From positions 1 through 36,353 of the IMG/VR virus record IMGVR_UViG_3300010148_000042: a DNA stretch of 36,353 nucleotides. The stretch is one strand, 5' to 3'. The position numbers and the translations under genes were made by a program. Shown here in pieces: positions 3,825 through 14,239 of this stretch. Numbering within the stretch: the first letter of the stretch is position 1; each line of letters starts with the position of its first letter. The notes under the pieces are model-generated. The model had not been told where the DNA came from, made no database searches, and worked only from the letters and a program-made list of their open reading frames with translations. This stretch comes from a virus.

Positions 3825-4715
3825 CTACATTACCTTTTTTGTAAAATCATCCATTACTAATTTATCTTCATCAACTAAACGCTGACCACATTTAGGACAA
3901 GAAACATATAGATTTCTTTCTCCTTTACGCTTTACATCTCTATGTTCAGCGCAAGTAAATATATACTCTTTCGGTTTAAAATACGTGCTAGTATCTTTTT
4001 CTTTGCGTTTATATGCACCTTCTTCAATTTTAATTACCGTTTTTTCTTTATGTAAAAAGTCAAAGTCAGCAGTCCATCCGTTATTATTATCTCCTAATAA
4101 AAATGGTGTCTGCTTTACTTTTTTATAATATGCTATAAAGTACTCAAGTTTAGGATTATCGTTCCACATACGCTTAATTAAACTTCTTCTTGAGCTATTT
4201 AACTTTTGAACCCTGTGTAAACTATCACTTAAAATACCATTATACTCTGCAACGACTTTGTCGTATGGAATTTTAGTAGTAGTAGATGCAGTTGTAGTTG
4301 AAGTAGCAGTTGCAGTAGCAGAGTTATGCGATGGCATTGGGGTTGCTATAGCCTTGCTATCCGATTGCCATCTTATCTTCGCACCTTTTTTGCCTGCCTC
4401 ACTCGCTTTTACACGTTTTTCTTTTTGCTCAAGTCTAATCGATTCCATTCTTTTGTTGTATAATCTTCCATCTAATTCATAGAAACAATTCATTACACTT
4501 ATCATTGACTCTTCAAACTTAGATGGATTACCACACAAGCGACTTAAAACAGACATGTCATTTGGTACACCGTTTTCAAGCCATGAAAAAGCTAGCAAGG
4601 TAATGTAAATACCTCTCTCTTCCATGCTCATAAGCTGTACGTTTATATCAGTTAAAAAATCACGTGCGTAGAATTGAAACGCTGGGGATTTATTCTCTTT
4701 CTTTTCCTTTAACAT
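3825..4715 (-). CDS. DUF1376-type replication protein
   Basis: A 296-aa protein with ATG behind GAGGAG. The N-terminal 100 residues match the DUF1376 (YdaU-like) pattern: SPAFQFYARDFLTD, then LMSMEERGIYITLLAFSWLENG, a winged-helix fold linked to phage replisome organisers. A basic KASEAGKKGAKIRW stretch and a Ser/Thr-rich linker (about 120-150) follow. The C-terminus contains HRD and CPKC, a possible zinc site (residues about 255-280). It is the last gene of the leftward operon. As the only recognisable replication-type gene here, it may load host replication enzymes at the phage origin. That role comes from the family and from context. Confidence 0.75.
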   Translation of the reverse strand: MLKEKKENKSPAFQFYARDFLTDINVQLMSMEERGIYITLLAFSWLENGVPNDMSVLSRLCGNPSKFEESMISVMNCFYELDGRLYNKRMESIRLEQKEKRVKASEAGKKGAKIRWQSDSKAIATPMPSHNSATATATSTTTASTTTKIPYDKVVAEYNGILSDSLHRVQKLNSSRRSLIKRMWNDNPKLEYFIAYYKKVKQTPFLLGDNNNGWTADFDFLHKEKTVIKIEEGAYKRKEKDTSTYFKPKEYIFTCAEHRDVKRKGERNLYVSCPKCGQRLVDEDKLVMDDFTKKVM

Positions 4716-4905
4716 TCACTAACTCCTCTTGTCTAATTGCTGTTAACCTCTTGTTTTTTAAAGTCTCTATAAATATTACACCACTCTTTGAAAAACTTTT
4801 AACTTTACCAAATTCGTAATCTAAAGAACCTTTCATATTATGACCTGTAACATAAGTTACTAAATCACCCTCTTTTATTTTTTTACCATTAAATATCATT
4901 TGCAT
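4690..4905 (-). CDS. small beta-rich protein, unknown
   Basis: A 71-aa protein overlapping the next gene by 26 bp. The pattern GKKIKEGDLVTYVTGHNM, then YEFGKVKSFSKSGVIFIET, then LTAIRQEELVNV suggests a small SH3-like barrel of the type that binds DNA or protein. I do not recognise a family. ATG 4905 has no good ribosome binding site; ATG 4899 (third codon) is equally possible. It is probably translated by coupling with the upstream gene, which it overlaps by 17 bp. Confidence 0.55.
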   Translation of the reverse strand: MQMIFNGKKIKEGDLVTYVTGHNMKGSLDYEFGKVKSFSKSGVIFIETLKNKRLTAIRQEELVNVKGKERE

Positions 4906-5134
4906 AAAAGTTGTTTAAAGAGCCTCTTCTTTTAAGATTGTGTACTCGTGCTATTTCTTTTTCTCTAGCATGAATAACATAATCAGCTTTTTTAATTAAT
5001 AGATTAGTAGATTCACTACCTTTTGCATTACTTCTCGAAAGTCTTTTAGTTTCTATTGACAAATCTTCTATTATTTCAATTAATTTACTAACTGTTTTTG
5101 ATTGCATTATAGTTGGGTCTAAATGTATTTTCAT
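4889..5134 (-). CDS. small helical protein, unknown
   Basis: An 81-aa protein. It is charged and mainly helical: residues 10-40 (QSKTVSKLIEIIEDLSIETKR) form an amphipathic helix, and residues 45-72 a second. It has no cysteine pairs or catalytic motif. It overlaps neighbours on both sides by a few bases (4 bp upstream), so it belongs to the same transcript. Function unknown. Confidence 0.5.
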   Translation of the reverse strand: MKIHLDPTIMQSKTVSKLIEIIEDLSIETKRLSRSNAKGSESTNLLIKKADYVIHAREKEIARVHNLKRRGSLNNFYANDI

Positions 5135-5313
5135 TTTGATTCCTTTTCTTTCTCTACGAATACTTTACTAATTGTATTTATGCCTCTTAAGTTTCCAATT
5201 TTTTTATTTCTCCATAGTTGTACTACGTTTAATACAAATTGAACTACTTCATTTGCTTGAGCTAGCTTAATTTCTAACTGCTCAACTCTTTCTTCAAGTT
5301 CTTTCTTTTTCAT
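5131..5313 (-). CDS. short coiled-coil protein
   Basis: A 60-aa protein opening MKKKELEERVEQLEIKLAQANEVV, a clear leucine-spaced coiled coil over about 35 residues, with a basic C-terminal end. It could oligomerise. Its start lies within the end of the nuclease gene (20-bp overlap). Function unknown. Confidence 0.55.
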   Translation of the reverse strand: MKKKELEERVEQLEIKLAQANEVVQFVLNVVQLWRNKKIGNLRGINTISKVFVEKEKESK

Positions 5314-5620
5314 TTCTTAATTTAACATACTCCATATATTGATTAAAAGATATTACTGCTAAAGGTTCCATTCTATCTTCTACAAGTATTTGTGAATCTA
5401 TCACAGTTTCTTTTGGTCTTATGTAATTTGCTAGCTTTCTTCTTCCTTTTACCTGTAAGTACAAACCATCTTGCATAACAATATCAACCTCATCGTCTAG
5501 CCCCATACTCCTGCCACTACTTCCCCATGTTCTTTTAGAATCTTTAAATCCATTTTCTTGTAAGATAGCAACAATTTTACGTTCTATCCTATTGCCTTTT
5601 TGCTTTTGTTTTCTTCCCAT
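5294..5620 (-). CDS. Holliday-junction-resolvase-like PD-(D/E)XK nuclease
   Basis: A 108-aa protein behind AAGGGA and ATG 5620. The first helix carries ERKIVAILQENGF (E13), followed by the loop RTWGSSGRSMG, then DEVDIVM (D46) and LYLQVKGR with Q56-x-K58. E, then D, then (Q/E)xK in this order is the core of the PD-(D/E)XK fold in Hjc-type resolvases, and the basic GSSGRS loop is typical of them. It would cleave branched DNA from recombination or replication before packaging. The annealing protein two genes upstream fits a recombination role. The exact substrate is inferred. Confidence 0.7.
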   Translation of the reverse strand: MGRKQKQKGNRIERKIVAILQENGFKDSKRTWGSSGRSMGLDDEVDIVMQDGLYLQVKGRRKLANYIRPKETVIDSQILVEDRMEPLAVISFNQYMEYVKLRNEKERT

Positions 5621-5635
5621 AATATCCCTTTTATT

Positions 5636-5731
5636 TTAGGGTAAGAGCGCCACCCCAATATCACTAATTTAAATGCAAGCCACTCCTCTGACCCACGATT
5701 TAAATTAATTCAATTAAGACTCTTACCCTAA
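5636..5731 (-). other. nested inverted-repeat element in early operon
   Basis: This element fills nearly all of the gene-free interval 5621-5737. Outer arms TTAGGGTAAGAG (5636-5647) and CTCTTACCCTAA (5720-5731) pair perfectly over 12 bp. Inner arms TAATTTAAAT (5665-5674) and ATTTAAATTA (5698-5707) pair over 10 bp. Between them are an internal loop (17 and 12 bases) and a 23-base apical loop. No T-run follows and no start codon gives a convincing ORF inside. It is in the transcript between an unknown gene and the resolvase gene. It could be a structured RNA, a processing site or a protein-binding site. Confidence 0.6.
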
Positions 5732-5737
5732 TTTATG

Positions 5738-6148
5738 TTAGCTGTTAAATAGTTTTATTTGATTTGGGTCAAGAATAGACCATTTATCTATACTTAAACC
5801 TACTTGCTTTCCAAACCCTCTGTCAAACTCAAAAGAACCTTCGTTAAAATCAGACATGCTAGTTTGATATCTTTTTTTAGATTCCTTGTCATGTATCATG
5901 ATTTTGTTTGCACCTTTTTTAACAGCTTCTTCTATGCTAGATTTATCAAATGCTATCGCAGGTGGTTTGCGTAAGAAATGCTTGCTAGCATATACACGCT
6001 TGTGGAAGGTGTCATCAATAATGACACCCACCACCTTTCCATTACCACCAAATATAGCATCTTGACTTGCTTGTCTAGTGTGTGAAAATTTTGGAACAGA
6101 ATTCATTTGAGTTCCGTATTTTTTCTCAGCTTTTTTAAGTCTACTCAT
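5738..6148 (-). CDS. conserved-looking phage protein, unknown
   Basis: A 136-aa protein from ATG 6148; the frame opens one codon earlier at a TTG, but the ATG overlaps the previous stop (TGATG). The N-terminus is basic (SRLKKAEKKYG). The middle has beta-type segments (GKVVGVIIDDTFHKRVY), then AIAFDKSSIEEAVKKGANKIMIHDKESKKRY, which looks like a small alpha/beta domain. No catalytic signature is recognised. It sits between annealing protein and resolvase genes, so a DNA-metabolism role is likely from context only. Confidence 0.6.
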   Translation of the reverse strand: MSRLKKAEKKYGTQMNSVPKFSHTRQASQDAIFGGNGKVVGVIIDDTFHKRVYASKHFLRKPPAIAFDKSSIEEAVKKGANKIMIHDKESKKRYQTSMSDFNEGSFEFDRGFGKQVGLSIDKWSILDPNQIKLFNS

Positions 6149-6840
6149 CAATCAAACAACTCCTCTTCAAAAGTTTTAGTCATTTCAGATATAGGTTTTA
6201 CCTCACCTTTAGGCTCTTCTTTAACCTTTTCTTTAGATTCTTGAGATGCCTCAATAACTATCCTAAAGGTTTGCTCTAAGTCAGCTAAATGTGCGTTCTT
6301 GCCATCTTTCTTGCCTGCTAACCAAGATAAATACCCATCATTGATGTCTTTCCAAGCAGTTCCTTTGTATTTACCAAAGGTAATTTCATTCTCTCTTTCA
6401 ACATTCCAATCAATACCATCAAGTTCAGAAGCGTCAAATTCTAAGTTCTCTTTAGCTTGAGTTGTGCTGTTGCTTGGAGCTGTGGAAGGGGTGTTATTTT
6501 GACTTATCATTGCGTTAGCAACTTCATCTGCTGACGCTATGCTAGCATCCGTTGAGAATCCTGCAAAAGCCAATGCACGTCCGACTGCACTTGTCTCTGC
6601 ATTCTCAAGTGCGCTAGTTTTGTTAATGAACGACGAACCTATTTGCTCTTCTGCATGACCTACAAATACATGAGTTCCTGCATCATTAGTGTGTTTGATA
6701 GTAGCTTTTACTCTTACGAATCCGTCTATTGATTCGAGTACTCGTGTTCTTATGGAAAGATTGCCTTCCCACTTTTCATGAGCCTCTGCTACTCTTTCAT
6801 TTACTGTTGCGTATTCTTTACCTTGTATATTTACAGGCAT
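6148..6840 (-). CDS. Erf/Sak-like single-strand annealing protein with ExoX-C-like tail
   Basis: A 230-aa protein with ATG behind AAAGGAG. Residues 1-110 contain NERVAEAHEKW, VRVKATI and the signature SALENAETSAVGRALAFAGF (about 75-95), typical of phage recombination mediators of the Erf/Sak/Rad52-like type. After a Thr/Ser linker, residues about 150-175 read ITFGKYKGTAWKDI--GYLSWLAGKK, matching the short FGKxKG...YLxWL module at the end of exonuclease X and in DUF3820 proteins. The C-terminus is acidic (EEELFD), as in single-strand binding proteins that recruit partners. It probably anneals ssDNA for recombination or end repair. The module assignment is by motif. Confidence 0.7.
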   Translation of the reverse strand: MPVNIQGKEYATVNERVAEAHEKWEGNLSIRTRVLESIDGFVRVKATIKHTNDAGTHVFVGHAEEQIGSSFINKTSALENAETSAVGRALAFAGFSTDASIASADEVANAMISQNNTPSTAPSNSTTQAKENLEFDASELDGIDWNVERENEITFGKYKGTAWKDINDGYLSWLAGKKDGKNAHLADLEQTFRIVIEASQESKEKVKEEPKGEVKPISEMTKTFEEELFD

Positions 6841-6871
6841 AGATACTCCTTTCTCTTTTGGTTGAAATTTT

Positions 6872-6948
6872 TATGGCAAACATTATTAAGGTAACTACAC
6901 TTAACAAAGGAGGACATGTTATATAAAAAAAATAACGCTTGCCATAAA
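6872..6948. repeat. inverted repeat in 109-bp gap before annealing gene
   Basis: TTTATGGCAA (6872-6881) and TTGCCATAAA (6939-6948) form a perfect 10-bp inverted repeat around 57 bases. Inside it GTTAT (6918-6922) can pair with ATAAC (6932-6936). It lies in the leftward transcript between a zinc-ribbon-like gene and the annealing protein gene. On the plus strand the interval has AAAGGAGG just before ATG 6916, opening a 22-codon frame on the opposite strand. No T-run in the right place for a leftward terminator. Confidence 0.5.
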
Positions 6949-6949
6949 C

Positions 6950-7171
6950 TTACATATAATATACTTCCCCTACTGTATTTTTAATACATTCATCACAATC
7001 AGAATTTTCATAATCGACTGTACCACACTTATTGCACTTTACTGTATCATCATGAGAAGATACTGTTTTAAAATTATAATCTATACCATGTCTTTCAAGA
7101 AATGATATAATAGTTTTTTTATTACTAAGACTTTTCGGTTTTTTGTCGAATACTATTGTCAATTTTTCCAT
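6950..7171 (-). CDS. small zinc-ribbon-like protein
   Basis: A 73-aa protein behind AGAGG, with CNKCG and CDEC pairs (residues about 46-49 and 59-62). Two CxxC knuckles 10 residues apart suggest a bound zinc. The N-terminal half (LTIVFDKKP...KTIISFLERHGIDYNFKTV) looks like a short beta-alpha-beta unit, resembling a glutaredoxin-like or ferredoxin-like piece. Function unknown. It overlaps the preceding gene by 47 bp. Confidence 0.55.
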   Translation of the reverse strand: MEKLTIVFDKKPKSLSNKKTIISFLERHGIDYNFKTVSSHDDTVKCNKCGTVDYENSDCDECIKNTVGEVYYM

Positions 7172-7367
7172 GTCTAATTACCTCTGTATCTAAAGATATT
7201 CTTGTTTTAATGTTAGCATAACCTGTTATATTACCCATCTTATCTTCTTTTTCACAATCATAATACATAACGTGAGTACTACCTAATCCATGCTCTAAAA
7301 CAACTCCATTTTTCTTAATACTTGGTATTGAGAATTGTTCATATTTATTTAATTTACTTAACTTCAT
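7125..7367 (-). CDS. small hypothetical protein
   Basis: An 80-aa protein. The frame opens at 7478, but ATG 7367 follows an AGGA site and starts a compact product, while the upstream part is Cys- and Ile-rich and overlaps the promoter region. It has a beta-type pattern (EQFSIPSIKKNGVVLEHGLGSTHVMYYDCE). It is the first gene after the terminator at 7.48-7.51 kb. No family recognised. Confidence 0.5.
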   Translation of the reverse strand: MKLSKLNKYEQFSIPSIKKNGVVLEHGLGSTHVMYYDCEKEDKMGNITGYANIKTRISLDTEVIRHGKIDNSIRQKTEKS

Positions 7368-7386
7368 AGATATAATCCTAGTTTTT

Positions 7387-7414
7387 TTTATATAAAATAT
7401 ATTGCAACCATCAA
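7387..7414 (-). promoter_or_regulatory. candidate leftward promoter after the 7.5-kb terminator
   Basis: On the minus strand TTGATG (7409-7414) and TATAAA (7387-7392) are 16 bases apart, close to sigma-70 boxes. The site lies between the terminator at 7.48-7.51 kb and ATG 7367, where a restart of transcription would be needed. AT-rich sequence makes chance matches common. Confidence 0.3.
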
Positions 7415-7476
7415 ATATGCAACATAATTTACAGAGTCTAATATTGTTCACATTCCTCTTACTTTCTCGGTTGAAC

Positions 7477-7505
7477 AAAAAGGGGGTGCTTTCGCTAGCA
7501 CCCCC
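7477..7505 (-). terminator. rho-independent terminator, leftward
   Basis: GGGGGTGCT (7482-7490) and AGCACCCCC (7497-7505) form a perfect 9-bp, GC-rich stem with a 6-base loop. On the minus strand it is followed by TTTTT (plus-strand A-run 7477-7481). It lies just after the gene ending at 7520, so it divides the leftward operon in two. A GCTAGC palindrome (7494-7499) spans part of the loop and stem. Confidence 0.9.
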
Positions 7506-7519
7506 ACCCTCTTTGATTT

Positions 7520-8089
7520 CTAGGACATTATTTCGCTAGCATCAGCCATATTTATCTCGTTACCTTCTTTTTCCCAAGTATCTACGTGCTTCCATTCTTG
7601 AACAAACTGCTCAACAGCTTTGTTGCATTCTATTCTAAATATATCAATTTGCTCTGATATGTCTGTACCTTCTAAAATAGCTTTATCTGTAAGAGTTTCT
7701 GCTTTCAAGCGATATTGATTTTTTATCTCACGCTTAGCTTTTTCTTGTGCGCTTGCTATCTCCTTTCGTTTTCTAGCAAAATCATCTACACCTACAATCA
7801 AATCTATCAATGACAGCTCTACAGTACCTATTCTATTAGAGTAATACGTACTAAAATCCCCTTGATTGACTTTGGTTTTTATCATGCTAACAATATGTGT
7901 GTCATGAATCCAATCGAGGTCGCCTGTTTTAAGAGCTTTAAACAGAGTCTTATTTTCTTCAATTAAAGGTGGTTTTATATCGTCATCTGCTCTTTCCATT
8001 TGCCTGTTAAAAGAATTGACTATATCATCGACTCGTTCTTTGAGGTACTTTTTTTGTATTTGTGTTAGTGGTTTGATTTTCTCGGTCAT
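7520..8089 (-). CDS. hypothetical helical protein
   Basis: A 189-aa protein. ATG 8089 is chosen because AGGAG lies 7 bases before it; the frame extends upstream to 8128 over the preceding gene. It is mostly helical and charged: a first helical part with KKYLKERVDDIVNSFNRQMERADDD, then a long coiled-coil-like segment (ARKRKEIASAQEKAKREIKNQYRLKA, about 110-135). The terminator lies 15 bp after its stop. No family or catalytic motif is recognised. Confidence 0.6.
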   Translation of the reverse strand: MTEKIKPLTQIQKKYLKERVDDIVNSFNRQMERADDDIKPPLIEENKTLFKALKTGDLDWIHDTHIVSMIKTKVNQGDFSTYYSNRIGTVELSLIDLIVGVDDFARKRKEIASAQEKAKREIKNQYRLKAETLTDKAILEGTDISEQIDIFRIECNKAVEQFVQEWKHVDTWEKEGNEINMADASEIMS

Positions 8090-8099
8090 CACTTTTCTC

Positions 8100-8318
8100 C
8101 TATTTTGATTTGTAAATAATATTAACAACTTCTAACAATTCTTGCACAGACTTAGCTACACGCTCTATGCTTTTTGACATATCAATCAAAGCATCTCCAT
8201 GTGATTTAAGTGTGCTAACTATCGTTTTTTCATTGCTAGCTAGTTCATTTACTTGATTAGTAAGGTTCTCTATTTTTTCGGATAGAACCTTTTCATATCC
8301 TTGTTTGTTTTTGCTCAT
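8100..8318 (-). CDS. short coiled-coil protein
   Basis: A 72-aa protein with ATG behind AGGAG. Nearly the whole length shows heptad spacing (VLSEKIENLTNQVNELASNE, then SKSIERVAKSVQELLEVV), so it should form a coiled-coil oligomer. It overlaps the preceding gene by 4 bp. Function unknown. Confidence 0.6.
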   Translation of the reverse strand: MSKNKQGYEKVLSEKIENLTNQVNELASNEKTIVSTLKSHGDALIDMSKSIERVAKSVQELLEVVNIIYKSK

Positions 8319-8725
8319 GCTGTTGCTCCTAAGTCATTATTTATGTGTGTTGGTATGTTGTCGTCTTTATCTTTAGGTGTTCCAATCATAACAGTCGTTG
8401 TGTGTCCATCATCTGTATTTTTATGCTCAAATCGTATTATTTGCTTATTTGTAATAAGCTCACAATCTTTTGCTATTTCTTGAAACATTTCATCAATACT
8501 ATGCTGTGCTACTTTACTTCCATTGCTAGCATCTTTACCCATAACAGATTTTTCTGTCCACATGTGATGCATGCTACCTATTACCTCTGATAGCATCCTG
8601 CGTTTTTCATTATCCTCTATTTTATCGGTAATGTTTTCTAGGAAGAAGTTTAGTATGTTCGTAAATAAAGAAAAACATACTGCCATATCATTGCAATAAT
8701 CTTCTTGTGTTATTTTGTCTTTCAA
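8315..8725 (-). CDS. hypothetical protein with TTG start
   Basis: A 136-aa protein. The start is TTG 8725, five bases after AAAGGAG; no ATG nearby would keep the N-terminal helix. It is helical in the first half (MAVCFSLFTNILNFFLENITDKIEDNEKR) with a hydrophobic face but no true membrane segment, and more polar in the second half. The opening codons TTG AAA GAC are the same as those of the AAA+ gene at 10834, and both are preceded by a similar hairpin. No family recognised. Confidence 0.55.
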   Translation of the reverse strand: MKDKITQEDYCNDMAVCFSLFTNILNFFLENITDKIEDNEKRRMLSEVIGSMHHMWTEKSVMGKDASNGSKVAQHSIDEMFQEIAKDCELITNKQIIRFEHKNTDDGHTTTVMIGTPKDKDDNIPTHINNDLGATA

Positions 8726-8755
8726 TGTCGCTCCTTTGGTTTGAGGGGGATATAT

Positions 8756-8787
8756 ATTTTATTTATCATTACATTACTAAATAAAAT
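8756..8787 (-). promoter_or_regulatory. hairpin with conserved 12-base loop, upstream of TTG 8725
   Basis: ATTTTATTTA (8756-8765) and TAAATAAAAT (8778-8787) pair perfectly over 10 bp around a 12-base loop, TCATTACATTAC (sense strand GTAATGTAATGA). Four more pairs follow beyond one mismatch. It starts right after the stop of the upstream gene and is 30 bases from the next start. Loop length and pattern match the hairpins at 10870-10897 and 12153-12182, although the stems differ. Confidence 0.6.
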
Positions 8788-9639
8788 CTATACCCATTCC
8801 CATGTTTTAGCATCACGTTTTTCTACTATGTCATGCAATGCTTTTTCAAAACTGTCTTGTAATTTTGTGTCATCTTTTATAATCGCTTGTTCTATGATGT
8901 AATCTAGCTTGAGTTCCTGCTTGTGTTCATCCGTTACAGTTGCTTGCATACCCATGCTACCCATATATCCAAAATACGAGTGATGTACCTTGAATATTTC
9001 ATGTCTAAGCAAGCCTGTGAGACCCATAGATAATATGCGCTGTACGTCAAGCCTTTCATTACTGCCCTTGAATGTAATCATCGTGCATGTCTTATCATAT
9101 TTTTTAGGGGTAGATGGACATGAAGTGTAGCATATTCCTATTATTTCGGTAGCATAACCCATCTTGGTAAGCACATCTGATATATACGCACCAGCACCTA
9201 CCAGCCTACCAAAGCTAGCTTCATTGTTTCCTGCTGATAATCCAAAGTTAATACCGATTCGGATATTCTTGGTTTTTCTGTTACGCTTGGTAGTTACCCA
9301 TGCATTATCAGAGTTTGCTAGAAACCTGTCAATATCTACTTCGTCTCCATCATCCATATATCTACGCTTACGTTTGCATGAAAGACCCAAGCCTTGAAAC
9401 TTGGAAACTTGTATCTTACGTTCAAGTAACGAGCGTACTTTTTTATACTGCGTGAGTAGTGTTGACGTAGTACGTCCATGATTGAGTGCTTGCAAGTGTT
9501 CGTCTTTTTCTGTGAAATGCTTGCCCCACGTCCATGAATCACCATTTTCACGAGCTAGTTCCCAATTATTCTTTACAATTTCTGATTGCAAGTGTTTAAC
9601 TGAGTCGAAACTTATAATTCCAAATCTATCTGTACTCAT
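8788..9639 (-). CDS. VWA-like (CobT-like) partner of the AAA+ ATPase
   Basis: A 283-aa protein with ATG behind AGAGGA, overlapping the AAA+ gene end by 14 bp. Residues about 125-250 look like a von Willebrand A fold: a strand RIGINFGLSAG, a helix FGRLVGAGAYISDVLTKMGY, then TEIIGI and later strands. The metal-site DxSxS is replaced by NFGLS, so the metal centre appears degenerate. The N-terminus includes WTWGKHFTEKDEHL. Phages often pair a MoxR/CobS-like ATPase with a VWA or CobT-like protein; the two act as a chaperone-like machine in cellular relatives. Its target here is unknown. Confidence 0.6.
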   Translation of the reverse strand: MSTDRFGIISFDSVKHLQSEIVKNNWELARENGDSWTWGKHFTEKDEHLQALNHGRTTSTLLTQYKKVRSLLERKIQVSKFQGLGLSCKRKRRYMDDGDEVDIDRFLANSDNAWVTTKRNRKTKNIRIGINFGLSAGNNEASFGRLVGAGAYISDVLTKMGYATEIIGICYTSCPSTPKKYDKTCTMITFKGSNERLDVQRILSMGLTGLLRHEIFKVHHSYFGYMGSMGMQATVTDEHKQELKLDYIIEQAIIKDDTKLQDSFEKALHDIVEKRDAKTWEWV

Positions 9640-10834
9640 TAACTAATCCTCTAAAGTTGATTTTGTCTAATTCTTCTACTGTCCATGAAGTAGTAATTCG
9701 TTCCAAGTACCACTTGGTTGACTTGCCTGCTTGATTCCATACATTAGCGTCGTGGAACCTACGTGAGCTTATGATACGTTCATGAATATGTTCGTTATTC
9801 ATGCGTCGTCTCAATTCCCATAGCATTTTTGCCCACTTATCATCATTCGCTAGCTTTTTCTCTAAGCCTTTGTCATAATCGATAAATATGGTTACGTCAC
9901 CAAGTCTGTCAAGAGTTGCCGAATCTTGCTGTCCACGTCCTGAGTATGCAAAGTCTTGTCCATCACCAAAGGTATTCATGATGCTAGCGTCGTAATAGTT
10001 GTCATGCTTCCATGCAAGTGGATTCTGTGTTCTGTTCGGTACAGCTATGTAACCTTGTCCATCAAGCATAGCATTTCTAATAAGCCCTGCATTACCATCC
10101 ATAGCGTCGGCTTCGTCCCAAACATTGATACCACCATTCTCAAACTTGTCGACGGCAAGTCCTGTATGGTATTTACCATGTGCGTCCATCTTACCTAATA
10201 GTTGAGCTTCAGACAACCCTGCTGAACATCCTATGTATTGGAAATCATTTTCTGTCATATCAATAGTCGGTGCTAGCTTATCCCAGACTTGTCTGGCAAG
10301 CGTGCTTTTTCCTGTGCCTGCTGGACCAACCATACAAACCAACTGCTTGTAGTATAAAGCCTCAAACACTTCCGAGAATTTAGGATGTACCATATCCTCG
10401 GTAATGGTAATGGTCGGCTTGTCTTTTATTTGAATATTGACAGGCTTCACCATTTCTTCGGCTTTCTCAATCATTTCTGTTACATGTGATTCTAATCCGA
10501 CGGCTAGTTCCATAACATCATCGGTAACCTCGCTCTTTATCTTGTCGGCTACAGCGTCAACTATCATCGATTCCATGCTACCTGCCTTAGGCTGTGCAAC
10601 TGTCTTGCTAGTAGTCTCGGTGCTAGTTGTAGCGTTGTGTTCCTGCATTTTCGGTAAGCTAGTCGGTAATGAATCATCATTTGGCTTGTCGTTACCAAGC
10701 AAAAATCTAATACGATTCTCGTTGCTTACCGTTTGTACCCACGATGATTTCTGTCCATTATCTTTGCATTTCTGAATCGCTTTTTGCTTTAGTTCAGCCG
10801 TCGTTAAACTTTCAAAGTAATTTCGGTCTTTCAA
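9626..10834 (-). CDS. MoxR/CobS-like AAA+ ATPase
   Basis: A 402-aa protein. The frame opens at TTG 10846, but GGAGG lies within those first codons, so TTG 10834 (five bases later) is the likely start. Residues about 8-50 look like a SAP-type DNA-binding helix pair (LTTAELKQKAI...NRIRFLLG). A low-complexity linker follows, then the AAA+ core: Walker A GPAGTGKST (about 170-178), Walker B INVWDEAD (about 236-243, DE), and ATLDRLGDVTIFIDY as the arginine-finger region. It should be a hexameric ATPase. A remodelling role, together with the VWA-like neighbour, is inferred from the cellular MoxR/CobS families. The SAP-like part could target it to DNA. Confidence 0.8.
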   Translation of the reverse strand: MKDRNYFESLTTAELKQKAIQKCKDNGQKSSWVQTVSNENRIRFLLGNDKPNDDSLPTSLPKMQEHNATTSTETTSKTVAQPKAGSMESMIVDAVADKIKSEVTDDVMELAVGLESHVTEMIEKAEEMVKPVNIQIKDKPTITITEDMVHPKFSEVFEALYYKQLVCMVGPAGTGKSTLARQVWDKLAPTIDMTENDFQYIGCSAGLSEAQLLGKMDAHGKYHTGLAVDKFENGGINVWDEADAMDGNAGLIRNAMLDGQGYIAVPNRTQNPLAWKHDNYYDASIMNTFGDGQDFAYSGRGQQDSATLDRLGDVTIFIDYDKGLEKKLANDDKWAKMLWELRRRMNNEHIHERIISSRRFHDANVWNQAGKSTKWYLERITTSWTVEELDKINFRGLVNEYR

Positions 10835-10860
10835 ATTGTCCTCCAATTCGGTTTGTTATT

Positions 10861-10906
10861 ATTAATTAATAGTGTATTCACTTTGTTACATACACTAATA
10901 ATTAAT
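10861..10906 (-). promoter_or_regulatory. hairpin with conserved 12-base loop, upstream of AAA+ gene
   Basis: TAGTGTAT (10870-10877) and ATACACTA (10890-10897) pair over 8 bp around loop TCACTTTGTTAC (sense strand GTAACAAAGTGA). After one A/A mismatch, 8 more pairs extend the stem (10861-10868 with 10899-10906). It reaches into the stop codon of the upstream gene. The inner stem ends 35 bases before TTG 10834. Same loop size and pattern as the hairpins at 8756 and 12153. Confidence 0.65.
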
Positions 10907-11201
10907 TTAGATTTGCTAGCTCGATTTCACCACTAGCTATTTTCTTGGTTATTTGTTTACTGTCTAGGTCTAAAAACATGTTCCTGTACTTGCTAGTTGT
11001 ACGTGAGTAATTGTAAAAGTATTTATCAAGTTCTATTTTTGAATCGATTAGTTGTACAACACAAGCACCGTAACTGTAAAATCTTGTTAAAGATTCACCC
11101 TTGTCATTTTCTAAGCTAATAACGTGGTGATTATTGACCATTTTATTTGTGTTTGGATTTACAAATCCATGTGATTTTGATTTGATTTTTTCTAATGACA
11201 T
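10902..11201 (-). CDS. small conserved phage protein (DUF8033-like)
   Basis: A 99-aa protein with ATG behind AAGGA. The pattern FYSYGACVVQLIDSKIELDKYFYNYSRTTSKYRNMFL follows a widespread phage motif 'SY-t-va...l--k-ySrTTskhxnxfl', recalled as DUF8033. It is a small beta-rich unit. No activity is known to me. It precedes the hairpin and the AAA+ gene in the early operon. Confidence 0.65.
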   Translation of the reverse strand: MSLEKIKSKSHGFVNPNTNKMVNNHHVISLENDKGESLTRFYSYGACVVQLIDSKIELDKYFYNYSRTTSKYRNMFLDLDSKQITKKIASGEIELANLN

Positions 11202-11215
11202 ATTAGTTCCTTGTT

Positions 11216-11323
11216 TTAATTAAATAAATGAATTGCTAATGCACCTACGATTAAATGATAAATGCATAATATTGATATGATTATAAACCATTTCAAAAAT
11301 ATTTCTGTATAATCTTTTTTCAT
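11216..11323 (-). CDS. 35-aa membrane microprotein
   Basis: Starts MKKDYTEIFLKW and continues with one strong hydrophobic helix (FIIISILCIYHLIVGALAI), ending HLFN. Its ATG overlaps the stop of the upstream gene (TAATG), and an AGG element lies in that gene's last codons. One membrane helix with a charged N-terminus suggests an inner-membrane peptide. The compact coupling supports coding; function is unknown. Confidence 0.55.
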   Translation of the reverse strand: MKKDYTEIFLKWFIIISILCIYHLIVGALAIHLFN

Positions 11324-11514
11324 TAAATAACCTCGATTACTTTATAAGTGTGATGGCTTGCTCGTTCGCATAGATATTCATAGTCTTTGCTTTTCATGTC
11401 ATTTAAAGCTTTGTCTATGACTTCTTTATCTTGCCCTTGCTCTTTCATAACTTGCTTTACTTTACCGAGGATAAAGAAAGCGTTGCCTTGTGATGATGTA
11501 CTGTCTATTATCAT
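11323..11514 (-). CDS. small hypothetical protein
   Basis: A 63-aa protein with ATG preceded by AAGGAG. It is helical (AFFILGKVKQVMKEQGQDKEVIDKALNDMKSKDYEYLCERA), possibly a small helical bundle unit. It lies between two membrane microproteins. No family recognised. Confidence 0.6.
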   Translation of the reverse strand: MIIDSTSSQGNAFFILGKVKQVMKEQGQDKEVIDKALNDMKSKDYEYLCERASHHTYKVIEVI

Positions 11515-11527
11515 TTAAACTGTCTCC

Positions 11528-11659
11528 TTAAAATAAATTAATTAATATGCTTACCAAGTATATTGATAAACCGATTAAACTACTTGCTAGCATAAACAAT
11601 GCTACAAATAATACCATGTCAATCATTAAGCTGATTGTATGCTGTGTGTTTTTTCTCAT
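11528..11659 (-). CDS. 43-aa membrane microprotein
   Basis: Starts MRKNTQHTISLM and is then almost wholly hydrophobic: MVLFVALFMLASSLIGLSIYLVSILINLF. This is enough for one long or two short helices. ATG 11659 follows AGAGGA and overlaps the stop of the upstream gene (ATGA). A GCTAGC palindrome lies in the hydrophobic part. Early phage membrane peptides can exclude superinfecting phage or alter host transport, but nothing specific is seen here. Confidence 0.6.
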   Translation of the reverse strand: MRKNTQHTISLMIDMVLFVALFMLASSLIGLSIYLVSILINLF

Positions 11660-11862
11660 TCCATATCCTCTCTTTTATATTCAATAAGCCACAACAATTC
11701 GTCTATTTCATTGAATATAAATTCTCTATTTTTAATACCGATAGTTTTAGCTTTCGATAATACTTTTACAGATTTATTAAGCAAATCATTTAATTCGTCG
11801 ATTGTAGTGCCTAATCTAAATCTTGAAATAACTTTATCTTTGCCGTAATAATTTCTTGGCAT
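11656..11862 (-). CDS. small helical protein, unknown
   Basis: A 68-aa protein starting MPRNYYGKDKVISRFRLG, followed by amphipathic helices (TIDELNDLLNKSVKVLSKAKTIG and REFIFNEIDELLWLIEYKRED). Start lies one base from the previous stop. No family recognised. Charge is balanced; it could be a small dimeric helical protein. Confidence 0.55.
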   Translation of the reverse strand: MPRNYYGKDKVISRFRLGTTIDELNDLLNKSVKVLSKAKTIGIKNREFIFNEIDELLWLIEYKREDME

Positions 11863-12129
11863 TTAAATACCTCCGTTAAATTTCTGTTTTAGCTTGTCGG
11901 TTAAATTGGCTTCGTTCTCTTTGCTAGCTTTTACCAGCATAGCTGAAGCTATGTAATAACGCTTGCCTTGTAATCTTTGCTTTCGATTAATCGAACTTGT
12001 GAACTTCGAAGCTGAACTCGTAGAGTTAAATTTGTTAATGATATTTACGGCGAAGCCGTCGTCCTTTGTAGCCTTGACCAAGATTTTTTTTCCGTCTCTC
12101 TTAGTTATTTGGTTTTGGATTGTTACCAT
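11863..12129 (-). CDS. small basic protein, first gene after the leader region
   Basis: An 88-aa protein started at ATG 12129 behind AGGGA; an upstream ATG at 12165 would overlap the hairpin. It is basic (TIQNQITKRDGKKILVKATKDDG, then SSINRKQRLQGKRYYIA). The order of strands and the ending KLKQKFNGGI suggest a small nucleic-acid-binding fold, but I recognise no family. It is the first gene downstream of the 12.13-12.48 kb leader. Confidence 0.55.
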   Translation of the reverse strand: MVTIQNQITKRDGKKILVKATKDDGFAVNIINKFNSTSSASKFTSSINRKQRLQGKRYYIASAMLVKASKENEANLTDKLKQKFNGGI

Positions 12130-12152
12130 GAGTTCCCTTTTATTTAGTTTTA

Positions 12153-12182
12153 ATATAGTATTCACTTACGTTCATACTATAT
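12153..12182 (-). promoter_or_regulatory. hairpin with conserved 12-base loop, upstream of 12129 start
   Basis: ATATAGTAT (12153-12161) and ATACTATAT (12174-12182) pair perfectly over 9 bp around loop TCACTTACGTTC (sense strand GAACGTAAGTGA). It ends 23 bases before ATG 12129. The loop shares the TCA-T pattern with the loops at 10878 and 8766, and CGTAAGTG with the loop at 2114-2146. It could act as RNA structure or as a protein-binding palindrome. Confidence 0.65.
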
Positions 12183-12196
12183 ATAAAACTTATAAA

Positions 12197-12230
12197 AGGT
12201 TTACTCATAGGTAACTTAATCCATAAACCT
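12197..12230. promoter_or_regulatory. paired AGGTTTA/TAAACCT half-sites, left side of control region
   Basis: AGGTTTA (12197-12203) and TAAACCT (12224-12230) are inverted copies 20 bases apart. The same 7-mer is clustered at 13105-13183 upstream of the rightward genes. A regulator acting on both sides of the control region would explain this. Chance occurrence of a single pair in AT-rich DNA is possible. Confidence 0.4.
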
Positions 12231-12234
12231 AAAT

Positions 12235-12476
12235 ACTAGCTGTCGTCGTCGACCTCGTAGCTGTAGACGTTAAAACGGTATTCTATGCGTAAGGGGGTTA
12301 AATAGGGGCTTTTGTCCCTGTGTATTGTTTAACGCTTAAAAATAGGGTTAAATGGATGTTTTACGTCGTAGGGGTAGCAAGGCTTACCTTGTACTATAAA
12401 ACGGCTAAATTCAGTACGTTTTGAGCTTTATTTAATATATTCAGGTTATAATTTGCGATGGGTTATCGCTTAAGGG
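12235..12476. other. gene-free structured region (leader or noncoding RNA candidate)
   Basis: There is no gene between 12130 and 12532. This stretch is more GC-rich than its surroundings and contains clear hairpins: CAAGG-CTTA-CCTTG (12378-12391) with flanking GTA/TAC pairs, and AGGGG/TCCCT (12304-12319) with outer GTTAAA/TTTAAC (12297-12302, 12328-12333). The 7-mer AAAACGG recurs at about 12273, 12399 and 12541. It would be the 5' leader of the leftward transcript, or a separate small RNA on the plus strand ending at the terminator that follows. Confidence 0.4.
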
Positions 12477-12516
12477 TAAAAAAAAACCTCAAGCGATTAA
12501 GCCTGAGGTTTTTTTA
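12477..12516. terminator. bidirectional terminator with a competing upstream stem
   Basis: AACCTCA (12485-12491) and TGAGGTT (12504-12510) pair, with an A-run before and a T-run after, so it can act on both strands. On the minus strand it ends the acidic gene at 12533. On the plus strand the sequence ATCGCTT (12465-12471) can instead pair with AAGCGAT (12491-12497), which would use part of the terminator stem; this is the geometry of a terminator/antiterminator switch. Confidence 0.8.
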
Positions 12517-13213: not shown

Positions 13214-13414
13214 ATGGCGTATGAACAAAAAGACATGACAGGCTCAATATTTACTAATGCTGGTAAGAAAAAAGAAAACCAACCAGACTTTACAGGCTCT
13301 TTTAAAATTAATGGTATTGTATACAATGTAGCAGGTTGGAAGAAGCAGTCAGCAAAGGGCATGGAATATGTCAGCTACAAGATAGAGGAAAAAGAAGAAA
13401 AGTTACCATTTTAA
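13214..13414 (+). CDS. DUF736-like small protein
   Basis: A 66-aa protein with ATG behind AAGGA. The order MAYEQKDMTGSIFTN, then NQPDFTGSFKINGIVYNVAGWKK, then GMEYVSYKIEEKE matches the DUF736 layout (YEQKDN-GaLF-N, hPDYtGs--i-G--y--saW-k). It is a small OB-like or beta-barrel protein; some relatives accompany ssDNA-binding functions. It is the first gene of the rightward operon and ends where the next gene starts. The family is assigned by motif recall. Confidence 0.7.
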   Translation: MAYEQKDMTGSIFTNAGKKKENQPDFTGSFKINGIVYNVAGWKKQSAKGMEYVSYKIEEKEEKLPF

Positions 13415-14239
13415 GTGATAGTAACCTGTAAAGGAAAGGAGTTTGAACAGTATGAACTCGATGAGATTAAAGCTGTTGGAATTGAAACAGTCGAAAACTG
13501 GCGTAATGCAAAGATTGGTGATTGGATACGGACTCATGATAGTAAGGTTATTAAAGTTATTGGAAGGCGTAAAAGGGTTTTTACTGGGAAGCGCAAACCG
13601 ATTACTTTTATACGCACAGGTTATGGAGAGACACCAACCTACCGAAAAAAAATCTATGCACTCAGACAAAAAGATTGGGGAGGAGAAGATGACCTCAACA
13701 AGCAGTATGTCAGAGATGTACCAGCTACAACACTTCAAAAACAGTTCGCAGACTATATTTCCAAAAATGGAAAACTGGACAAGAACGGTAAGTTCAATAC
13801 AGAATCCATCGTTGATGCATATACATACGCTTTCAGCGACAACAATCCAAAACAATCACTTAAAAGAGGTCTTAGAATTTTACGCAAAAAACATATCGTT
13901 GATAGGATTAACATGAACATAAGAGAAACCTTATTAGAACATGGTATGGATGATGATTGGGTTGCCAGACAATACAAAGACCTTGTAGATTCAGGCTCTG
14001 GTGTAGCTAAACTAAATGCCTTAAATCGTGTGTCTGATTTGCTGGGTCATTCTAAGAAAGAAAAAGAAGAAAAGACGCAAAACATTATCATGATTTCAGA
14101 TGGTGATAAGAAGCTATTAGCAGAAGCACGTAAAGAACTTTCTGATAAAGATATCGGTAAGTTGATGCATATTGTTAAGAACAAAGGAATTGATGGTGTA
14201 CTTGAAGCGCAAGATACCCAAGTTGATGATATCAGTTGA
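13415..14239 (+). CDS. probable small terminase subunit
   Basis: A 274-aa protein beginning at GTG 13415, directly after the preceding stop, which suggests coupling. The first part has a beta-rich YxxGExPTYRKK segment; residues about 95-200 look helical with an HTH-like organisation (FNTESIVDAYTYAF, LKRGLRILRKKHIVDRI, LEHGMDDDWVARQYKDLVDS). This HTH-like segment, then helices and a charged C-terminus (SDKDIGKLMHIVKNKG), is usual for DNA-recognition terminase subunits. It lies upstream of the large subunit gene with three small genes between. Small terminases vary widely, so this rests on position and fold type. Confidence 0.55.
   Translation: MIVTCKGKEFEQYELDEIKAVGIETVENWRNAKIGDWIRTHDSKVIKVIGRRKRVFTGKRKPITFIRTGYGETPTYRKKIYALRQKDWGGEDDLNKQYVRDVPATTLQKQFADYISKNGKLDKNGKFNTESIVDAYTYAFSDNNPKQSLKRGLRILRKKHIVDRINMNIRETLLEHGMDDDWVARQYKDLVDSGSGVAKLNALNRVSDLLGHSKKEKEEKTQNIIMISDGDKKLLAEARKELSDKDIGKLMHIVKNKGIDGVLEAQDTQVDDIS

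Follow-up and report, generated by a model that had tools for sequence, protein, structure and literature searches.

Capped hairpins at three fixed places of a phage early operon: a candidate family of RNA operators

The stretch of DNA analysed here (the window) is a 36,353-base IMG/VR virus record, in the left-central part of which a leftward early operon occupies positions 3825-12165 on the minus strand. This operon encodes DnaD-like and RusA-like proteins, a DUF7192 protein, a CobS-like AAA ATPase and small proteins, while the morphogenesis genes (TerL, portal, capsid) run rightward from 14.6 kb. Three hairpins of the operon, at 8756-8787, 10870-10897 and 12153-12182, are the subject of this work. 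They had been pointed out in a first-pass annotation, and we confirm their coordinates, their perfect stems of 10, 8 and 9 bp, respectively, and their loops of 12 nucleotides (nt). The loops quoted at that time were those of the wrong strand. As these are minus-strand genes, the relevant sequences are the coding-strand (minus) ones, GTAATGTAATGA at 8756-8787, GTAACAAAGTGA at 10870-10897 and GAACGTAAGTGA at 12153-12182, and it is in these that the functional loops sit.

In each hairpin, a 1-nt bulge or mismatch separates the inner stem from a second stem beneath it, and at 12153 still further stems follow. Site A, whose 9-bp inner stem (12153-12182, minus strand) carries the cap GAAC(GUAA)GUGA and scores 39.3 bits with the covariance model described below, belongs to the first gene of the early operon (11863-12129, minus strand; 88 aa, pI about 10), which starts inside the hairpin. 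Site B (10861-10906, minus strand) stands before the gene of the CobS-like AAA ATPase (9626-10846, minus strand; PHROG 249, Pfam AAA_5), the likely start of which is the TTG at 10834, the one with the best Shine-Dalgarno sequence. It consists of the 8-bp inner stem, a 1x1 U·U mismatch and an 8-bp outer stem, with the cap GUAAC(AAA)GUGA. Site C (8748-8795, minus strand) follows the DUF7192 gene (8788-9639, minus strand; Pfam PF23822) and is made of the 10-bp inner stem, a 1x1 mismatch and a 7-bp outer stem that overlaps the stop codon of the upstream gene; its cap is GUAAU(GUA)AUGA. The gene downstream of it (8315-8725, minus strand) encodes a 136-aa protein with no family assigned.

An alignment of 22 tips, from the window and from the related contigs introduced below (designated by L numbers), defines the cap. 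The first and last positions are G·A, or U·U in two clades, both of which keep the remaining features; position 2 and the next-to-last form A·G (or U·G), and the third pair is A-U in all 22 tips. The next pair is C-G, U-A or A-U according to the clade, in fixed columns in about half of the sequences and one column off in the others. The cap ends in a loop of 2-5 bases, often GUA, GAA, GUAA or GCAA, for a total tip length of 10-15 nt. From their sequence context, the G·A pairs would be of the sheared type. The 12-base open loop that had been regarded as a general feature does not hold, since the length varies among relatives and the apparent loop is a structured cap. The possibility of start codons in the loops was also considered, the tips first noted all holding ATG, GTG or TTG, and was rejected: the reading frame is not kept (in L007, a stop is reached two codons after the TTG of the tip), and the bases of these triplets are accounted for by the cap, through its A-U pair and its G.

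The bare geometry of the hairpins, a perfect stem of at least 8 bp closing a loop of exactly 12 nt, is only mildly enriched: 4 instances are found in the window (the three hairpins and a terminator at 12480-12515) against a mean of 0.9 and a maximum of 3 in 40 dinucleotide shuffles. When the tip pattern is added to the geometry, the excess over shuffled sequence proposed as a check is clear: the window has 3 instances where a shuffle has on average 0.17, and four relatives have 2-3 each where their shuffles have 0-0.17. A plus-strand hairpin at 2114-2146 had been counted as a fourth member. It does exist: it has a GNRA cap and a single bulge, and an exonuclease gene has its ATG 20 nt further on. 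However, it shares with the family only the closing pair and a GUAA tetraloop (CGTAAGTG), it receives no covariance-model score even at E = 5 with the filters off, and no relative was found with a hairpin of this type before the same gene, so that its membership is unsupported.

About 25 informative related contigs were obtained from IMG/VR, where the ATPase, TerL and DUF7192 proteins served as queries. Wherever the region is covered in them, hairpins are present at the equivalent places, which was the other check that had been proposed: before the first operon gene (A), before the ATPase gene (B) and after the DUF7192 gene (C). Site B is found in 14 out of 14 leaders of ATPase homologues with at least 33% identity, on stems as diverse as TAGTGTAT, TATTTAAGGT, CTAACTTATC, CATACTT, TTTTATACTTC, TATATTTAGCA and ATTAATTATTAGCATAT, and site C is at the same place in L002, L005, L007, L008, L010 and L012. 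The stems differ fully between clades and still pair, and within each genome those of A, B and C are unrelated to one another. The compensatory changes that had been suspected are indeed there: 11 pairs show 75 cells changed on both sides, against 25.7 in shuffles, and the covariation score is 0.73, compared to 0.18 in shuffles and 0.06-0.19 in slid structures, these counts being biased by the fact that the hairpins were first picked as perfect stems. Three checks are independent of this bias, the syntenic presence of the hairpins just described, the paired substitutions among near relatives, and the sites found by the model outside its training set. In four groups of near relatives, 10 substitutions are two-sided and 1 is one-sided. 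The covariance model found, where they were predicted, sites on which it had not been trained, namely site C of L008, L010 and L012 and a fourth site in L025. Across 97 sources (1.26 Mb), it gave 40 matches at E <= 1, all within the hairpin family and all 40 on the transcribed strand, including the fourth site of L025, where the direction of transcription flips; the distant phages among these sources gave none.

The initial idea of a structured element on the transcribed strand, at fixed places upstream of early gene starts, is thus borne out. A palindrome with a fixed spacer, which had been offered as another explanation, is rejected because the spacer varies in length and the stems have no sequence in common. 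Site B is absent from the leaders of more distant CobS-like ATPases (L026-L085), the L073 clade discussed below excepted. A general viral element was rejected as well: a scan of all IMG/VR for TATGAAYGNAARTGAATA returned 45 stretches, among which the only one outside the family with a long stem, L174, has it in an AT-repeat stretch. Rfam 15 gave no match at the gathering score across the whole window and, on 8600-12400, only a chance match to a plant miRNA (E 0.26). Literature searches for such hairpins found nothing close.

Site A differs from the other two in extent. The full hairpin (12116-12223, minus strand) is a stack of four stems with small bulges, about 108 nt long with about 45 bp. 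Going down from the 9-bp stem, there is a bulged U, then a 7-bp stem, then the pairing CCUUUUAU/AUAAAAGG, which covers the Shine-Dalgarno sequence (about 12135-12141), and finally stems that take in the AUG (12127-12129) and the codons that follow it in the first gene. The minimum free energy is -44.7 kcal/mol (z -8.4), and the same plan is built from other sequence in L003, L004, L005, L007, L008, L010, L013, L104 and L129. In folding predictions, the start region at site A (11 sequences) is unpaired with a mean probability of 0.27, whereas 23 control starts average 0.55 (p = 5e-6, an inexact value as the sequences are related). The gene covered in this way encodes a basic protein of 60-92 aa (pI about 10). 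The suggestion that the element is bound by a translational regulator agrees with site A, given the predicted burial of its ribosome site; no binder was identified.

We consider it somewhat probable that these hairpins are phage RNA operators of the early transcript, acting in RNA form, read at the tip by a factor and affecting translation or message processing. Each would consist of a perfectly paired stem of free sequence that presents a small structured cap, in three places, so that one trans-acting factor could serve several early messages through the cap they share. At site A, the stem over the Shine-Dalgarno sequence and the start codon would keep translation of the first gene off or low by default, and binding to, melting of or cleavage in this hairpin would set its level. 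At sites B and C, where the ribosome sites are free, the hairpin would most likely mark the message for the same factor, the possible outcome for the ATPase and site-C genes being repression, processing or an effect on local stability. Candidate ligands of the tips are the first-gene product, the products of two genes common to most hairpin-bearing phages (an SSB-like gene at 13214-13414 and a 274-aa gene at 13415-14239), or a host protein.

Several observations weigh against this interpretation. The start regions at B (0.54) and C (0.60) are no different from the controls, so that occlusion of the ribosome-binding site, the mark of a translational operator, is predicted at A and not at the other two sites. 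The first-gene protein has no match in Pfam, PHROGs or PDB, its AlphaFold2 (AF2) model is of low confidence (mean predicted local distance difference test, pLDDT, 62) with Foldseek matches that are not meaningful, and a profile search found no recognisable homologue of it in L025, which has the hairpins. G·U pairs are nearly absent: there are none in 163 inner-stem pairs beyond the core, and they make up 1.5% of pairs across all folds, against 11.6% in folds of shuffled sequences; terminators provide no firm control here, their G·U content being noisy because the scan allows G·U. Such scarcity is unusual for a helix selected only as RNA, in which G·U should be tolerated, and it keeps in play a role at the DNA level or a ligand that demands a strict double helix.

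A role as DNA, in cruciforms or single-strand hairpins such as N4-like hairpin promoters, or in replication signals, would account for this lack of G·U and for the two-sided changes without one-sided intermediates. The N4 promoter hairpin likewise has stem bases that are free provided they pair and a sheared G:A in its 3-base loop (PMC4496689), and the leaders of 17-70 nt that follow the hairpins would suit a promoter. We nevertheless find it rather improbable. N4 hairpins act on the template strand, whereas the G·A tip is here a coding-strand feature; none of the large proteins was recognised as an RNA polymerase, although a distant one could be missed; the site A stem continues through the start codon into the gene; and the orientation of the hairpins follows transcription in both directions. 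Chance hairpins, or dispersed repeats of the repetitive extragenic palindromic (REP) or miniature inverted-repeat (MITE) kind, can hardly be credited: the sequence is AT-rich and the geometry by itself exceeds expectation only modestly, but the specificity of the model and the lack of a stem shared by A, B and C within a genome speak against them, and the conservation of the hairpins at the same places in all clades refutes them.

Two further explanations keep the hairpins in the RNA. A processing site was among the initial suggestions, and the hairpins could be processing or stability hairpins of the RNase III type, like those that separate the cistrons of T7-like early transcripts; the cap would then be simply a very stable end with no dedicated binder. 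Sites B and C do lie between cistrons, often at the stop codon of the upstream one, have a total stem of 15-19 bp with one bulge or mismatch near the middle and leave the ribosome site free, and other phages with related ATPases have differently tipped hairpins at the same place. We regard this as doubtful, given that the invariant A-U pair and the two U·U variants that preserve the rest of the cap reveal a tip constrained far beyond the needs of stability, and that processing alone leaves the burial of the start at A unexplained. Antitermination in the manner of lambda N/nut, which had also been put forward, would make the hairpins loading sites and the first gene an antiterminator that also represses its own translation. 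BoxB is lineage-specific in lambdoid phages, and so is the tip type here; moreover, the first gene is small and basic and hairpins recur at several places downstream of it, and it is through nutL that lambda N represses its own translation (PMC5725501). Yet inspection by eye, with no systematic search, showed no boxA-like partner, and Rfam gave no match; the caps differ from the 5-nt GNRA-like loop of boxB and the stems are longer; convincing terminators within the operon are few; and the lack of a recognisable first-gene homologue in L025 is as awkward here. This makes it quite unlikely.

In some lineages, the places are kept and the tip is another. In L021-L023, the GA tip is confined to site B, and the long perfect hairpins found ahead of the first gene of the operon and in the vicinity of C have the tips AUAG(GAA)CUAU or AUAC(GAA)GUAU (L021:6981-7012, L022:5038-5069, L022:6487-6520 and L023:6253-6285; L021:10708-10746, L022:12078-12114 and L023:11767-11803), the assignment of the near-C ones to site C resting on a weak match of the downstream protein. 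In the L022 hairpin at 5038, the Shine-Dalgarno sequence is within the 3' arm. In L144 (34% identity in the ATPase), an 18-bp hairpin with the tip AUAC(GGA)GUAU stands in front of the ATPase gene, and two other hairpins have different stems and the common tip ACCUUUAGGUGA (the three perfect hairpins are at 5791-5841, 9123-9158 and 9639-9674). This is what would be expected if the tip and its cognate factor changed together. A different case is that of the L073 clade: the ATPase leaders of L208, L209, L210 and L212, phages only distantly related by their ATPase, have a hairpin TGTGGGGG-GAACGAAGTGA-CCCCCACA, with a compensatory change in L209. It looks alike, yet it gives no model match at E <= 1 and was not retained as a member; close relatives have other tips, and the likeness may be convergence.

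A more specific form of the RNA operator hypothesis can be put forward tentatively. A phage RNA-binding protein, perhaps the basic first-gene product, may read the capped tips at several early cistrons and repress its own buried start, the tip and the protein co-changing by lineage; with no fewer than three types of tip occurring at these sites, this would possibly be an unrelated counterpart of lambda N/nut specificity. Whatever the factor, these uncultured phages contain a structured element not described before: it is captured by a clear covariance model, its places in the genome are fixed, and it offers, where the early operon begins, a switch that can be put to the test. A leader of about 110 nt and a basic protein of 88 aa make a small, clonable system in which to study RNA recognition by a new phage regulator, and why the stems nearly wholly avoid G·U is a question that goes beyond sequence alone.

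Other features of these genomes were recorded. The CobS-like ATPase gene (annotated "porphyrin biosynthesis" in PHROGs) and the DUF7192 gene form a conserved pair, found in every phage that has the hairpins and also in L144. No closely related cultured phage was found, and a search of genome contigs with the ATPase gave no match. Two contigs binned in the Candidatus Marinimicrobia metagenome-assembled genome UBA7303, L234 and L235, have a TerL 61% identical to that of the window and lack capped hairpins of this family; this is a weak hint at a Candidatus Marinimicrobia host and does not establish it. The window has 56 copies of the palindrome GCTAGC, of which base composition would predict about 3, and the palindrome is similarly frequent in L010, L007, L008 and L021 (29, 23, 32 and 20 copies, about 2 being expected in each), while it is absent from the distant L154. 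In the intergenic region upstream of site A (12190-12480, minus strand), a word AAACAATAC (longer forms AAAACAATACAC) is common to the window and its relatives, and is perhaps a promoter or origin signal.

How does this family compare with known systems? Kink-turn loops, which bind L7Ae-type ligands, have a similar tandem G·A beside a UGA/GA sequence; kink-turns and K-loops were rejected, since no 3-nt bulge is needed to align the tips. Further differences are that a loop of 2-5 bases follows directly on the upper A-U and one more pair, and that U·U replaces G·A in some tips. The hairpin promoters of the N4 virion RNA polymerase (PMC4496689) resemble the present hairpins in their partly free stems, a G·A in the tip and a location upstream of early genes, and differ in being read on the template strand by a giant polymerase, with a 3-base loop on a stem of 5-7 bp, where we find longer stems and a coding-strand tip. 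Nearest in function, with no claim of membership in either, are the autoregulation of lambda N through nutL and the gene 43 operator of T4 and RB69. The lambda system (PMC5725501) has in common with ours a first early-operon gene encoding a small basic protein, a leader hairpin and further hairpins downstream; here, the loop is different, boxA was not seen by eye, antitermination is putative and it is the hairpin itself that buries the start. The operator of T4/RB69 gene 43 (PMC3014915) is, likewise, a hairpin with conserved tip bases upstream of an early phage gene, serving as a translational operator. It has a single target and is a 16-18-base hairpin with a 4-base core loop, completed by sequence over the ribosome site, whereas the present family combines three sites, long stems of free sequence and a G·A/A·G/A-U cap.

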